NCBI RefSeq assembly: GCF_007741475.1
Contig: NZ_CP036261.1
Span: 992,001-1,056,000 of the forward strand
Length of the DNA stretch: 64,000 bases
Reading direction: 5' to 3'
From: Rosistilla ulvae
GTDB taxonomy: Bacteria > Planctomycetota > Planctomycetia > Pirellulales > Pirellulaceae
Below, piece after piece: positions 34,495 through 60,798 of this stretch. Each line of letters starts with the position of its first letter. Position 1 is the stretch's first letter. The notes under the pieces were generated by a model. That model made no database searches. It was not told the origin of the DNA and was given only the letters and a program-made list of their open reading frames with translations. Both the position numbers and the translations under genes were made by a program.

Positions 34495-34828
34495 CAGCAA
34501 ACTCAAACCGCAATCCCGCGAAACGACGCAACATCCAGCGTGGGCGAAAGCCCACGTTGGAGCGTTCCATAGTGTGCATTAGCCGCGAAGCCGGCGGCAG
34601 CATCTAGTCGTGGGCATCAGCCCACGAATCGAGAGCGTTCAAGAACGCGCATCAGCCGCGAAGCGGCGGCAGCGTTCGATTGCTATCGCCGCTTCGCCGC
34701 TGAACGTATCGATGCACACTGAAATCTGCGGGCTCACGCCCGCAGCTAAACGCTACCGCCGTTTCACGGCTGGGGAATTCCACAACGAATCTCGCGTGAT
34801 CCTTGCGGCCCTCGTCCCGGAAAACGGC
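34495..34828. repeat. REP-type palindrome array
   Basis: Non-coding stretch between convergent genes. Contains CGTGGGC-GAAA-GCCCACG at 34539-34556, AGCCGCGAAG-type units near 34581 and 34654, their inverted forms CGCCGCTTCGC near 34687 and CGCCGTTTCACGGC near 34757, and GTGGGC..GCCCAC and GCGGGC..GCCCGC hairpins at about 34610 and 34728. The same units occur at 56759-57020, 59297-59750 and 60300-60680. Confidence 0.7.
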
Positions 34829-53228: not shown

Positions 53229-54220
53229 TAGAGCACCGATTCCAAAAAGTCAAAGCTGTTGGCAGCGTCCAAAAGCAAGCCCGCGGATGGCATCGCAATT
53301 GCCACTGCGGAGACCTCGCGTTGAATCGCGTGTGGCCCTACGAACTTGGTGTGTAGTCCTGGCTTAGAATTCCGGCGGCTTACACCGCCGGCAAGTCTTG
53401 TGTCGGCCTCCGGCCTGCTCTTGTTGGGATAGTTTTGACCCTTGGTGATCGGACCAACAAAAAGCCCGGAGGGCGATACATGATCTGCCGGTGGCATAAG
53501 CCACCGGAATCCGAGATCGCGAATCCCAACAAAGCCCGGAGGGCGACATACTCGCCCACTGTGCCGCCCTTCAAACGGTGTCCTTCTCGCAGCGAGATGC
53601 ATTCCGGCGACGCGTGACGCCGGAATGTCGTGTGCCGGCCTGGGCCGAGTGCTCGCGGCGATCAAACCGGAACGAAGCCGCGGTAGCGGCGACCGCATAA
53701 AGCCTGCGGCGCGAGCCGCATGTCCGGGACGAAAATGGCCGCGTGCGAGCCCCGGGTAGGGGCGACAGATTACAGATGCTGTCGCCCCTTACCGGGGCTT
53801 TGTGTTGTTTTGCGAATTGCGATCCTGCGGCTGGCGCTGCAGGCTTTATGCGATCGCCGCATCCGCGGCTTAGATCTCCACGCTGCTGCATGTTCAAGTC
53901 CCCCTGCCAGCCTCCTGCCTCCGACTTTCAACAGCGTTGCAACCTGTCAACGCACAAACCTCGAGGCGGACGGCGGCAATTCGGATCAGTTTCGACGATC
54001 TCGGTTTTGTTTCGACTGCTTCCGCCCAAAGGCTTTGAAGTGAGGAATTACCGGGGTTAGGATTGTGGCTCCCCCCCAGTACACCGTCGCCGGATTTCCC
54101 AAGTCGATTGGCAATTCACAATGCTGTCGAAGACCATTGCCCGCGACGGAAGCTGCCCCCGTCAGACGCCGTGTTGCGTTTGATTCTCGCCGTTAACCAC
54201 TTTCATCAGGGAACGTTCCT
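53229..54220. other. Large repeat-rich intergenic region
   Basis: Contains the CCGGCGGCTTACACCGCCGG palindrome at about 53374-53393, followed by CTTGTGTCGGCCTCCGGCC, a unit also found at 56990-57030; GCCCGGAGGGCGA at about 53464 and 53537; GGTGGCATAAGCCACC near 53490; and the long hairpin at 53748-53799. No gene-like frame is supported. Confidence 0.55.
53748..53799. terminator. Long hairpin, terminator-like
   Basis: Arms of 21 bases (53748-53768 and 53779-53799) match with only two mismatches around a 10-base loop, followed by a T-rich stretch (TTGTGTTGTTTTG). It may stop transcription or be a REP-type palindrome. Confidence 0.55.
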
Positions 54221-56758: not shown

Positions 56759-57174
56759 AGTTGGCTTGTCGCGGCTGGGCGTTTTAATCGCGAAGCGATG
56801 CCAGCATTTAGCCGTTGGGCATCAGCCCACGGAACCGTGCGTTCCCCCAAAAACTATCAGCCGCGAAGCGGCGGTAGCGCTCGGTTGCTGTCGCCGCTTC
56901 GCGGCTGATGCCGGACAAACTTGATGGGGCTACGGGCTGACGCCCGCAGCTAAATGCTGCTGCCGCTTCGCGGCTGGGCGGTATTCCATCGGCTTACGCC
57001 GCCGGCAGATCTTATGTCGGGCTCCGGCCTCTGGCTTCCACTAACGGACCCGATCGAAGACCGTTAAAATGTTGGACAACTTGCTTGCTCGCAAACCGGC
57101 CGCTGGTCCCTTCCCGTCGATCGCTCCCTTCCCCCGCGAGCGTTTGATTATTCAATTACAGAGAGGCTCTCACC
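56759..57174. repeat. REP-type palindrome array
   Basis: Non-coding. Contains GTTGGGCATCAGCCCAC, AGCCGCGAAGCGGCGG and inverted CGCCGCTTCGCGGCTG (about 56870-56908), GGGCTGACGCCCGCAGCTAA and CTGCCGCTTCGCGGCTGG, then the CGGCTTACGCCGCCGGCAG unit (56990). The end leads into the epimerase gene, which has a GAGAGG ribosome site before its TTG. Confidence 0.7.
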
Positions 57175-58204: not shown

Positions 58205-59296
58205 ATGAAGATCCAAGACCTACCCGCCGCCGTCCGCGAGAACGTACGCCGAGGAACCGTCATCCCGGCTCAGCCGTTGGCACTGGACGCTCAGCGAAAA
58301 TTCGCTCCTCGCTACCAAACCGCTCTAACGCGGTACTACATCGACGCGGGGGCCGGCGGCATCGCCGTTGGCGTTCATTCGACACAGTTTGCAATCCGCG
58401 ATCCGTCGATTGGATTATTCAAACCGGTGCTGAGTCTGGCGTCGGAGGTCATCGACCAATACGCGGGCGATCAGGGACGCGAACTGTTTAAAGTCGCGGG
58501 AGTTTGCGGGGAGACGCCGCAAGCAGTCGCCGAAGCCCAGTTCGCCGTATCGCAGCGGTATCACGCTTGTCTGTTGAGCTTGGCGGCACTTGCCGAGAGC
58601 AGCATCGACGACTTGTTAGATCATTGCCGAGAAGTCGCCGAAATCATGCCGGTGATCGGCTTTTATTTACAGCCCGCCGTCGGTGGCCGCGTGTTGCCGT
58701 ATCGCTTCTGGCGTCAGTTTGCCGAGATCGAAAACGTCATCGCGATCAAACTGGCTCCCTTCAACCGCTACCAAACCCTCGATGTCGTTCGGGCGGTTTG
58801 CGATGCCGGTCGCGAGGATGCGATCACACTCTACACCGGCAACGACGACAACATCATCGCCGACCTGATCACACCGTACCGGATGGTCACCGAGCGAGGC
58901 GTGAAGTCGGTTCGGATCCGTGGCGGATTGCTTGGACATTGGTGCGTATGGACTCGCGTGGCCACCAGCCTGCTCGACGAAATCCATCGGATGATCGACC
59001 GCGGCGATGACGACATCCCGACGGAATGGTTGAGCCGCAACATCGAAGTCACCGATTGCAACGCAGCCTTCTTCGATGCGGCGAACAACTTTGCCGGCTG
59101 CATCCCTGGAATCCATGAGGTACTGCGTCGTCAAGGATTATTGCCGGGAACCTGGTGCTTGGATCCCAACGAAGTCCTTTCGCCAGGCCAGTCGGAGGAG
59201 ATCGACCGCGTGCTCGCCGCTTACCCACATCTCAACGACGATGATTTTGTGCGTGAACACCTGAGCCGATGGTTGCAGCATCGTTCCATGGGCTGA
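58205..59296 (+). CDS. Dihydrodipicolinate synthase / N-acetylneuraminate lyase superfamily aldolase
   Basis: 363 residues from the ATG at 58205, four bases after the epimerase stop. TIM-barrel class I aldolase: Schiff-base Lys near residue 182 in VIAIKLAPFN, partner Tyr near 154 in IGFYLQPAVGG, entry signature YYIDAGAGGIAVGVHSTQF. The usual GTTGE is replaced by GVHSTQ, so it is not DapA itself. It is longer than the typical 300 residues, with a helical C-terminus (GQSEEIDRVLAAYPHL). Reaction unknown. Confidence 0.88.
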   Translation: MKIQDLPAAVRENVRRGTVIPAQPLALDAQRKFAPRYQTALTRYYIDAGAGGIAVGVHSTQFAIRDPSIGLFKPVLSLASEVIDQYAGDQGRELFKVAGVCGETPQAVAEAQFAVSQRYHACLLSLAALAESSIDDLLDHCREVAEIMPVIGFYLQPAVGGRVLPYRFWRQFAEIENVIAIKLAPFNRYQTLDVVRAVCDAGREDAITLYTGNDDNIIADLITPYRMVTERGVKSVRIRGGLLGHWCVWTRVATSLLDEIHRMIDRGDDDIPTEWLSRNIEVTDCNAAFFDAANNFAGCIPGIHEVLRRQGLLPGTWCLDPNEVLSPGQSEEIDRVLAAYPHLNDDDFVREHLSRWLQHRSMG

Positions 59297-59830
59297 CGCC
59301 CGATGGCTAAACGCTGCCATCGCTCCGCGATTAAGGGACACCAGCCGCGAAGCGGCGTCAGCATCTAGCTGCGGGCGTCAGCCCGCAGATCATGCGCACC
59401 GCGATACACGCAGCCGCGAAGCGGCGACAGCAACCGATCGCTACCGCCGCTTCGCGGCTAATGTTTATTGGGTGGGCTCATCGATCCGTGAGCTGACGCT
59501 CACGGCTAAACGCTGGCATCGCTTCGCGATTCCGAGACGTTAGCCGCGAAGCAGGCGGCAGCATCTAGCTGCGGGCGTAAGCCCGCAGATTACGCGTACA
59601 CCAATGCACGCAGCCGCGAAGCGGCGACAGCAATCGATCGCGATCGCCCCTTCGCGGCTAATGTTTATTGAAGGGCTATCGATCCGTGGGCTGACGCTCA
59701 CAACTAAACGCTGGCATCGCTTCGCAATTCATCAACGATACCCTCTACCGGCTCACGGCTGTCCGGATCATGTCTTCTACAATTTGGTGTCGTTGAACCG
59801 ACGAAAAACCGCGAACAGAAGGTGGATTGG
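59297..59830. repeat. REP array upstream of the RAYT-like gene, about 200-base module
   Basis: AGCCGCGAAGCGGCG and inverted CGCCGCTTCGCGGCT units alternate with CTGCGGGCGT-[CA]-AGCCCGCAG and TGACGCTCACGGCTAAACGC. The string ATGTTTATTG recurs at 59461 and 59661, giving a module of 200 bases; a first, more divergent unit starts near 59287 and a third is cut at about 59730. Confidence 0.85.
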
Positions 59831-60295
59831 ATGGGCAGCTTCACGCAACTGAACTATCACATCATTTACGCCACAAAATACCGTCACCCTTCGATAGTTC
59901 CTGACATTCGCGAACGGCTTTATGAATACATCGGTGGCACAATCCGTGCAAAGAAAGGAGCCCTTGTCGAAATCGGCGGTATCGCAGATCACGTTCACAT
60001 CTTAGCCAATCTTTCGCCAACACTTGCAGTGTCTGACGTCGTTCGAGATATCAAGGCCAATTCATCGCATTGGATGAACGACCAATCCGAAATTTGACGT
60101 CCCTTTGAATGGCAGAAAGGCTATGGTGCTTTCACCGTTAGCTATTCGCGAATAGCGAGCGTCCGCCAGTACATTCAAAAGCAGGAAGAACATCACAAGA
60201 CTGCGACGTTCCAGGAAGAATACGTGGCTTTTTTGGAACGTCACGGAATTGAATTCCGACTTGAACATCTGTTTGAAGACGAGCATCACGGGTGA
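59831..60295 (+). pseudogene. REP-associated tyrosine transposase (Y1, IS200/RAYT type) with in-frame TGA
   Basis: Open from the ATG at 59831 (MGSFTQLNYHIIYATKYRHP) to the stop at 60295, 155 codons, interrupted once by TGA at 60095-60097. HUH motif in GIADHVHILANL and the catalytic Tyr in the post-stop part, SVRQYIQKQEEHHK, preceded by FEWQKGYGAFTVSYS, are typical Y1 transposase blocks. Change of TGA to CGA (Arg) would restore it. REP arrays on both sides support the REP-associated family. As it stands, an 88-residue product would have the HUH but not the Tyr. Confidence 0.85.
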
Positions 60296-60798
60296 ACGCT
60301 TGGCGACGGATGGATTTGCGGGTTCTCCAAGCTGCGATCGCTTCGCGGCTGAAGATGTTTTTTGGGGGGCTCATCGTTCCGTGAGCTGACGCTCACGACT
60401 AAACGCTGGCATCGCTTCGCGATTCCGAGACTCCAGCCGCGAAGCGGCGACAGCACCCGGATCGCTACCGCCGCTTCGCGGCTGAAGGTGTTTTTTGGGG
60501 GGCTCATCGATCCGTGAGCTGACGCTCACGGCTAAACGCTGGCATCGCTTCGCGATTCCGAGACTCCAGCCGCGAAGCAGGCGTCAGCATTTAGCTGCGG
60601 GCGTGAGCCCGCAGATCATGCGCACGCCAATGCATTTGGCCGCGAAGCGTGAGTCCGCAGATCACTGTATACAGGCAAACCTCAGTCGAACGAGATATAT
60701 TGTCAGCGACGCTTGACCCGTTCTTTCGCGAGTCGAACAATCGGATGGGCTGGAAATCCGCCCACCATTCACTGATACCACATCTAGGAGAGACGACG
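60296..60798. repeat. REP array downstream of the RAYT-like gene
   Basis: Two similar units beginning GGGGGGCTCATCG near 60365 and 60498, about 133 bases apart, each with TGAGCTGACGCTCACG, CTAAACGCTGGCATCGCTTC, and CAGCCGCGAAGC. A further half unit ends in GAAGCGTGAGTCCGCAGATC near 60660. The last 120 bases lead into the DUF1080 gene. Confidence 0.85.

Follow-up and report, generated by a model that had tools for sequence, protein, structure and literature searches.

Organization of the transposase locus

The window analysed here is a 64,000-nucleotide stretch of the Rosistilla ulvae genome (contig NZ_CP036261.1, positions 992,001 to 1,056,000), numbered from its first nucleotide. It contains a nonsense-interrupted Y1 (HUH) transposase gene of the IS200-type subclass 1.2 (59831..60295, transcribed rightwards; Pfam Y1_Tnp, 99.3 bits) lying between arrays of palindromes that correspond to the Rfam family RF01687, Acido-Lenti-1 (A-L1), a 46-nt two-hairpin consensus with four matches over the gathering cut-off in the window. 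An initial annotation had proposed a Y1 gene between palindrome arrays, organized as a system of repetitive extragenic palindromes (REPs) with a REP-associated tyrosine transposase (RAYT). The frame and the units on both sides are present as described, but the gene is not intact, with an in-frame TGA at codon 89 (60095..60097, same strand), upstream of the catalytic-tyrosine codon; and the palindromes, thought perhaps to be unstudied, are already catalogued, filed as a small RNA.

The encoded protein carries H54-V55-H56 and Y114-x3-Q118-x2-HH, with YIQKQEEHH as its tyrosine motif and Y114 as the catalytic tyrosine from alignment with IS608 TnpA; YxxxQxxHH is given as the mark of TnpA subclass 1.2 where that subclass is described (PMC6006769). 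It passes the NCBIfam IS200/IS605 model NF033573 (83.1 bits, cut-off 55) and has no match at E≤1e-3 to NF047646, the model for REP-associated tyrosine transposases; the comparison with these models led us to reject the gene as a RAYT proper. Among PDB entries the nearest relatives by sequence, with the intact protein of a congener as query, are the TnpA proteins of IS608 and ISDra2. A structure model of the L089 protein, from Planctomycetes bacterium Pan216 (mean pLDDT 88.9; the alignment, A5, used 50 of the 80 loci described below), has its best structural match in IS608 TnpA (Z 16.3, 108 residues, rmsd 2.4), with TnpA_REP 4er8 ranking behind the IS200-type chains (Z 10.9, 115 residues, rmsd 3.1). 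In G149, a genome of the same genus, the frame is uninterrupted at the same site and is followed by a longer downstream array. The window transposase is probably dead in this genome, and the arrays relics, unless another subclass 1.2 enzyme serves them.

R1, a covariance model of the two-hairpin unit built from 23 units, finds eight copies of the unit around the transposase, in both orientations. Each A-L1 unit consists, in order, of a hairpin H1 (an 8-bp palindrome, usually with a 4-nt loop), GCT, usually A, about 8 nt, CG and a second hairpin, H2. Upstream of the gene are units at 59286..59332 (+; R1 48.6 bits), 59343..59388 (-; RF01687 39.4 bits, R1 61.1 bits; in the R1 training set as L032), 59486..59531 (+; RF01687 43.7 bits; single-stranded DNA fold z -3.3; in the training set as L022) and 59542..59588 (-; R1 50.5 bits), with a degenerate unit at 59686..59729 (+; R1 28.2 bits) closest to the transposase. 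An inverted pair of H2-type hairpins lies in the middle of a -/+ doublet at 59413..59458 (repeat search, and partial R1 matches at 59413-59433, -, and 59437-59458, +). At the right end, a folding gene-side hairpin of a kind common among relatives (H3, 60330..60350, +) is followed by units at 60379..60424 (+; R1 47.4 bits), 60512..60557 (+; RF01687 43.7 bits) and 60568..60614 (-; R1 49.9 bits).

The same units had been noted alone at 34495-34828 and 56759-57020, and each region does hold a solo inverted doublet: 34581..34771 (34581-34627, -, and 34726-34771, +; RF01687 and R1) and 56786..56975 (56786-56832, -, and 56930-56975, +; R1), the latter aligning through in G149 and differing in a second congener, G150. 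Further doublets, absent from the initial annotation, lie at 53372..53870 by R1, one at 53676-53722 (-) and 53824-53870 (+) and a diverged pair at 53372-53416 (+) and 53463-53507 (-), whose presence differs among the window genome (G000), G149 and G150. The units at 53372-53507, which adjoin an A-L1 doublet, are of the type surrounding L040, a different transposase of this genome. The -/+ doublets recur with 97–98 nt between units (34581/34726, 56786/56930, 59343/59486 and 59542/59686), and the single-stranded DNA fold predicted for one complete doublet of 189 nt is far stronger than those of its shuffles (z -7.4).

Association of the units with related transposases

A profile of 12 relatives yielded 583 related loci in named genome records, and we analysed the best 80 of these (sorted from their record titles as 32 planctomycete, 18 acidobacterial and 16 verrucomicrobial loci, with 14 from other groups); 79 of the 80 carry HUH and YxxxQxxHH. 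An R1 unit (E≤1e-3) lies within 200 nt of the transposase in 68 of the 80 loci, a figure biased by the choice of profile (see below), with units on both sides in 48, on one side in 20 and on neither in 12; with L086 and L118, which share sequence with R1 training loci, removed, the figure is 66 of 78. Of the 12 loci without such units, eight have inverted end repeats that outscore all 30 control pairings.

All tests of spacing, end similarity, stems, flanks, hairpins and foot rest on the 216 R1 matches, out of 260, that reach E≤1e-3. The closest unit is in the - orientation upstream in 51 of 59 cases and in the + orientation downstream in 51 of 57, so that the ends are mostly inverted, and the units stand mostly 43–95 nt before the start and 45–61 nt after the end of the transposase match. 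R1 density is 6.8 per kb under 100 nt from the gene and 0.05 per kb at 1–2.5 kb (L131 left out). Rfam's own RF01687 model at its cut-off places a unit within 200 nt in 34 of the 80 loci and on both sides in 15 (planctomycetes 13/32, acidobacteria 11/18, verrucomicrobia 6/16; most of the tandem rows of L131 are omitted, which leaves these counts unaffected). The two ends of one locus resemble each other (mean identity 0.86, versus 0.64 between loci), with the end's own partner ranking first in 35 of 48, and end similarity follows protein similarity (Mantel r 0.53, reached in 0 of 2000 permutations).

An unusual array is found in L131 (Desulfococcaceae HSG8), where 38 R1 matches, spaced for the most part at about 69 nt, form tandem runs on one strand to either side of the transposase, between 1882 and 5087.

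Anatomy of the unit

GCT follows H1 in all 45 of the aligned units found by RF01687; its conservation is quoted from that alignment and from the foot scoring because the 56 units with a scorable H2 had been picked for GCT after H1. On the opposite strand this appears as a TAG foot immediately 5' of H1; with H1 located by pairing alone, the foot is nTAG in 129 and exactly GTAG in 30 of 152 units scored, from 183 unique unit sequences. On its gene side, H1 is accompanied by an H2-like hairpin, usually 20–27 nt away (stem of at least 5 in 42 of 51 upstream and 44 of 52 downstream units), and on its outer side a comparable hairpin, again with a stem of at least 5, is seen in only 11 of 50 upstream and 12 of 51 downstream units. 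The outward flanks beyond H2 are little conserved, with at most 0.26 bit per position. These flank and gene-side hairpin tests used the nearest units of usual orientation, with L131 left out. The flanks of L012, L013, L014 and L018 contain another GC-rich interspersed repeat, of the CACCCTCCCC... CGGGGAGGG type, often adjoining A-L1 copies.

Across the 23 R1 units, 76 stem cells are changed on both sides, none on one side only, and 3 are unpaired. The larger set of 183 unique sequences (139 with a scorable H1, 56 with a scorable H2) has 1353 Watson-Crick, 9 G.T and 30 other cells, counts that were made with no real RNA as a yardstick and in which R1 and the Rfam model may favour copies with few G.T pairs. 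RNA helices normally admit G.U, and with so few G.T pairs selection on a DNA palindrome is the simpler, if indirect, reading. Overall, the sequence comparisons suggest that RF01687 is not primarily an RNA. It is best read as the REP-like partner, in DNA, of an IS200-type transposase in a REPtron-like system, its palindromes being ends used by a widespread family of single-strand transposases.

Distribution in the genome, its congeners and other planctomycetes

The palindromes are dispersed well beyond the window and are commoner than chance would give. The pattern AGCCGCGAAGCGGCG occurs 13 times in the 7.48-Mb genome, versus 2 for its reversed pattern. RF01687 matches the genome at least 47 times at E≤1e-3, and 26 of these matches exceed the cut-off (150 of 1331 candidates scored). 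For R1 there are at least 91 matches (150 of 3095 candidates scored), and at least 57 and at least 130 in the two congeners; with no more than 150 candidates scored per genome, all genome-wide RF01687 and R1 counts are lower bounds. None of 14 control genomes matched RF01687.

The three congeneric genomes have 7 (this genome), 5 and 5 Pfam Y1 genes, of distinct families, and all seven of this genome sit, by eye, amid their own palindromes. The loci of its four IS200-type, subclass 1.2 genes (L039–L042) hold A-L1-like units (best E 6e-15, 5e-4, 3e-7 and 1e-3, R1 unfiltered), and the other three Y1 loci have no R1 match better than E 0.087 in the same unfiltered search. These last three (L043, L044 and L045, at about 3.02, 0.76 and 1.90 Mb of the contig) lie, by eye, amid palindromic repeats of their own that are different; L044 passes the RAYT model NF047646 (82.5 bits, cut-off 80), with L043 and L045 below it or unmatched. 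The three other relatives of the window protein in this genome are 39–41% identical to it.

Four gene families are found at the same sites in congeners, with flank identities of 88–97%: the window gene and its G149 counterpart; L040, with G149 and G150; L042, with G150; and L221 in G149 with L224 in G150. At the site of the window transposase, G150 (L176, C1, about 1113.7–1114.3 kb) instead has what reads from its sequence as a small toxin-antitoxin-like gene pair. At window positions 53238-54159, G149 has no doublet, G150 has one, and G000 has one together with an insertion, roughly 0.4 kb long, that carries diverged units; two further places differ in elements between G000 and G150. The three places compared with congeners have sharp breaks and turnover, but no clean target or cleavage site was found in them.

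Among 149 planctomycete genomes, taken to be the same set in both surveys, RF01687 is present in 40 and the transposase (E≤1e-10) in 33; 32 have both, one has the transposase only (G107, as two fragments), eight have RF01687 only and 108 have neither. RF01687 is thus present in 32 of the 33 genomes with the transposase versus 8 of the 116 without it (Fisher 6e-24, a value that overstates independence because the genomes are related); the RF01687-negative calls are soft because stricter filters were applied here, which give 26 matches in G000 versus 47 otherwise. A draft planctomycete genome, G011, has the top-scoring RF01687 matches of the survey and no close subclass 1.2 homologue, which the assembly may simply lack. 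R1 matches, from 3 to 148 per genome, occur in 16 of the 20 genomes that were searched by way of the named loci.

Interpretation and alternative explanations

We consider it probable, at about 0.78, that the locus represents the centre, now decayed, of a REPtron-like system, in which a single-copy subclass 1.2 Y1 HUH transposase is paired with cognate palindromes, the Acido-Lenti-1 family being DNA. Judged by sequence, most relatives examined have the unit at one end of the transposase or at both, mostly inverted and at regular spacing; solo copies are dispersed, and intergenic copies vary between congeners. The REP/RAYT assignment of the initial annotation is therefore only partly retained: relatives and congeners have a REPtron-like layout, but the protein falls outside the RAYT family. 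It had also named a finding that would refute it, an IS200 transposase with defined ends unrelated to the palindromes, and of this one half applies: the protein does fall with IS200, yet in most relatives examined the palindromes themselves form the ends.

A mechanism can be proposed by analogy with TnpA_REP, which is reported to recognise single-stranded REPs through the hairpin and a GTAG foot and to cleave them at CT and, in one instance, at CA as well (PMC8266576). For the subclass 1.2 enzyme, the bound substrate would be the single-stranded H1 hairpin with its TAG foot, and the foot would select the cleavage site; the transposase tyrosine would then cut, and the palindromes could be mobilised in trans as single-stranded DNA. 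The -/+ doublets may represent the two ends without a gene between them. We advance more tentatively, and with rather less than even confidence, the broader idea that Acido-Lenti-1 is no RNA family and constitutes widespread mobile palindromes of single-stranded DNA over several phyla, each lineage's copies being served by its own immobile subclass 1.2 transposase; that the minimal unit H2-H1-H2, in which a single strand bears two similar hairpins, may be all that a substrate requires; and that REP systems were thus domesticated a second time, on the IS200 side and independently of the RAYTs.

Several observations weigh against the REPtron-like interpretation. In the window itself the - unit expected beside the start codon is missing, the closest one upstream being degenerate and in the + orientation. 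Of the 26 units over the cut-off in this genome, 16 show nTAG when the foot is read at a fixed position. Nor can 68 of 80 be taken as an unbiased rate, because most of the 12 profile transposases were chosen for flanking RF01687, and when the best homologue in each RF01687-positive genome is taken, RF01687 (E≤0.01) is found anywhere in the locus in 19 of 30 loci and not in 11. The eight RF01687-positive genomes without a homologue at 1e-10 are all drafts; four have Pfam Y1 matches, as fragments or divergent genes, and short R1 matches (E about 3e-5) lie beside only one of these, L231 in G039. No R1 copies (E≤1e-3) were found in 4 of the 20 genomes reached through named loci (those of L115, L121 (Methylobacter), L158 (Bacteroidetes) and L104).

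The transposase and its inverted two-hairpin ends might alternatively be a true insertion sequence that moves as a unit in the manner of IS200/IS605, with solo A-L1 copies as remnants resembling miniature inverted-repeat transposable elements. The match of the protein to the IS200 model fits such an element, as do ends at a regular distance from start and stop, outward flanks as unconserved as expected at element boundaries, and -/+ doublets that resemble ends with the gene removed; we nevertheless regard it as unlikely, in that relatives at 39–41% identity mean that no recent copies are seen, the four families common to congeners occupy the same sites, and the ends are mostly inverted, unlike the one-strand ends of IS608-type elements. 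Still less probable is a functional small RNA or transcript-end structure for which the place beside transposases is secondary. The discoverers tabled Acido-Lenti-1 as a probable RNA (PMC2864571, Table 1), an account from 2026 calls it a little-known noncoding RNA and suggests that it regulates protease genes (PMC13298647), and the covariation is strong; against this stand the few G.T pairs (9 of 1392 cells), the copies on both sides of the transposase in opposite orientation, the tandem array of 38 matches around one gene in L131, and the differences in copies between congeners. A plain small RNA was rejected as the main account on the stem pairing, with its few G.T pairs.

That the transposase simply inserted into, or was captured by, a repeat array that was already in place, the two having no functional connection, is suggested by the degenerate left end in the window and the arrays on both sides, but is hardly credible given that the regular spacing and pairing recur in several phyla, that ends and protein covary, and that all four subclass 1.2 loci of the genome have A-L1-like units and the other three Y1 genes none below E 0.08. 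Chance neighbourhood as the main account was rejected on the association and spacing in relatives.

If the REPtron-like interpretation is correct, it would explain two orphans, the Rfam 'small RNA' (PMC13298647) and an IS200-type subclass for which terminal structures are described as generally absent; A-L1 copies would have to be re-annotated across genomes, and REP-like systems would gain a second origin to set against the RAYTs. We found no paper joining Acido-Lenti-1 or RF01687 to a transposase in the titles and abstract openings of the open-licence literature, a scope that excludes the supplement of the 2010 paper.

Comparison with known systems

With TnpA subclass 1.2, as described by Quentin et al. 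2018 (PMC6006769), the window gene and its relatives share YxxxQxxHH and a low copy number, but the subclass is described there as generally without terminal structures, whereas most relatives here have hairpin ends; these hairpin-ended members are spread over Planctomycetota, Verrucomicrobia, Acidobacteriota and other groups. TIRYTs (TIRtrons; PMC3733652) and TnpAY1 class 3 are likewise reported as Y1 genes accompanied by terminal repeats or palindromes, including in Acidobacteria and, for class 3, Planctomycetes. Class 3 is described with a CnGA foot and Y-x4-Q (PMC6006769), versus a mostly nTAG foot and Y-x3-Q here, and TIRYTs as mostly of class 2.1 with helix-turn-helix domains (PMC6006769), from which the present genes are set apart by that description and not sequence by sequence.

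IS200/IS605 elements such as IS608 and ISDra2 provide the nearest PDB relatives by sequence and by predicted fold. The ends of IS608-type elements are hairpins of one strand orientation, with no inverted repeats, whereas the ends of the relatives here are mostly inverted copies; nor were near-identical copies of the window gene seen in this genome, its other matches being those at 39–41% identity. RF01687 has the same 46-nt two-hairpin consensus and differs in its reading: Rfam files it as a small RNA, and we interpret it as the DNA terminus of a transposase module.

The RAYT or TnpA_REP systems with their REPs (REPtrons, REPINs and BIMEs; PMC2817692, PMC3733652) are reminiscent of the locus in their low-copy Y1 gene, flanking palindromes (inverted in most relatives here, with the left end degenerate in the window), gene-specific palindrome variants, many solo copies in doublets, and a conserved foot, ending in AG, on the 5' side of the hairpin; the combination of a single-copy gene with many dispersed solo palindromes, by which RAYTs are recognised, is found here too. 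They differ in that the protein here lies on the IS200 side, with YxxxQxxHH versus YIxxNP, that the foot is mostly nTAG versus the strict GT[AG]G of RAYT REPs, and that the unit has the second hairpin H2, usually with a gene-side copy of H2 as well.
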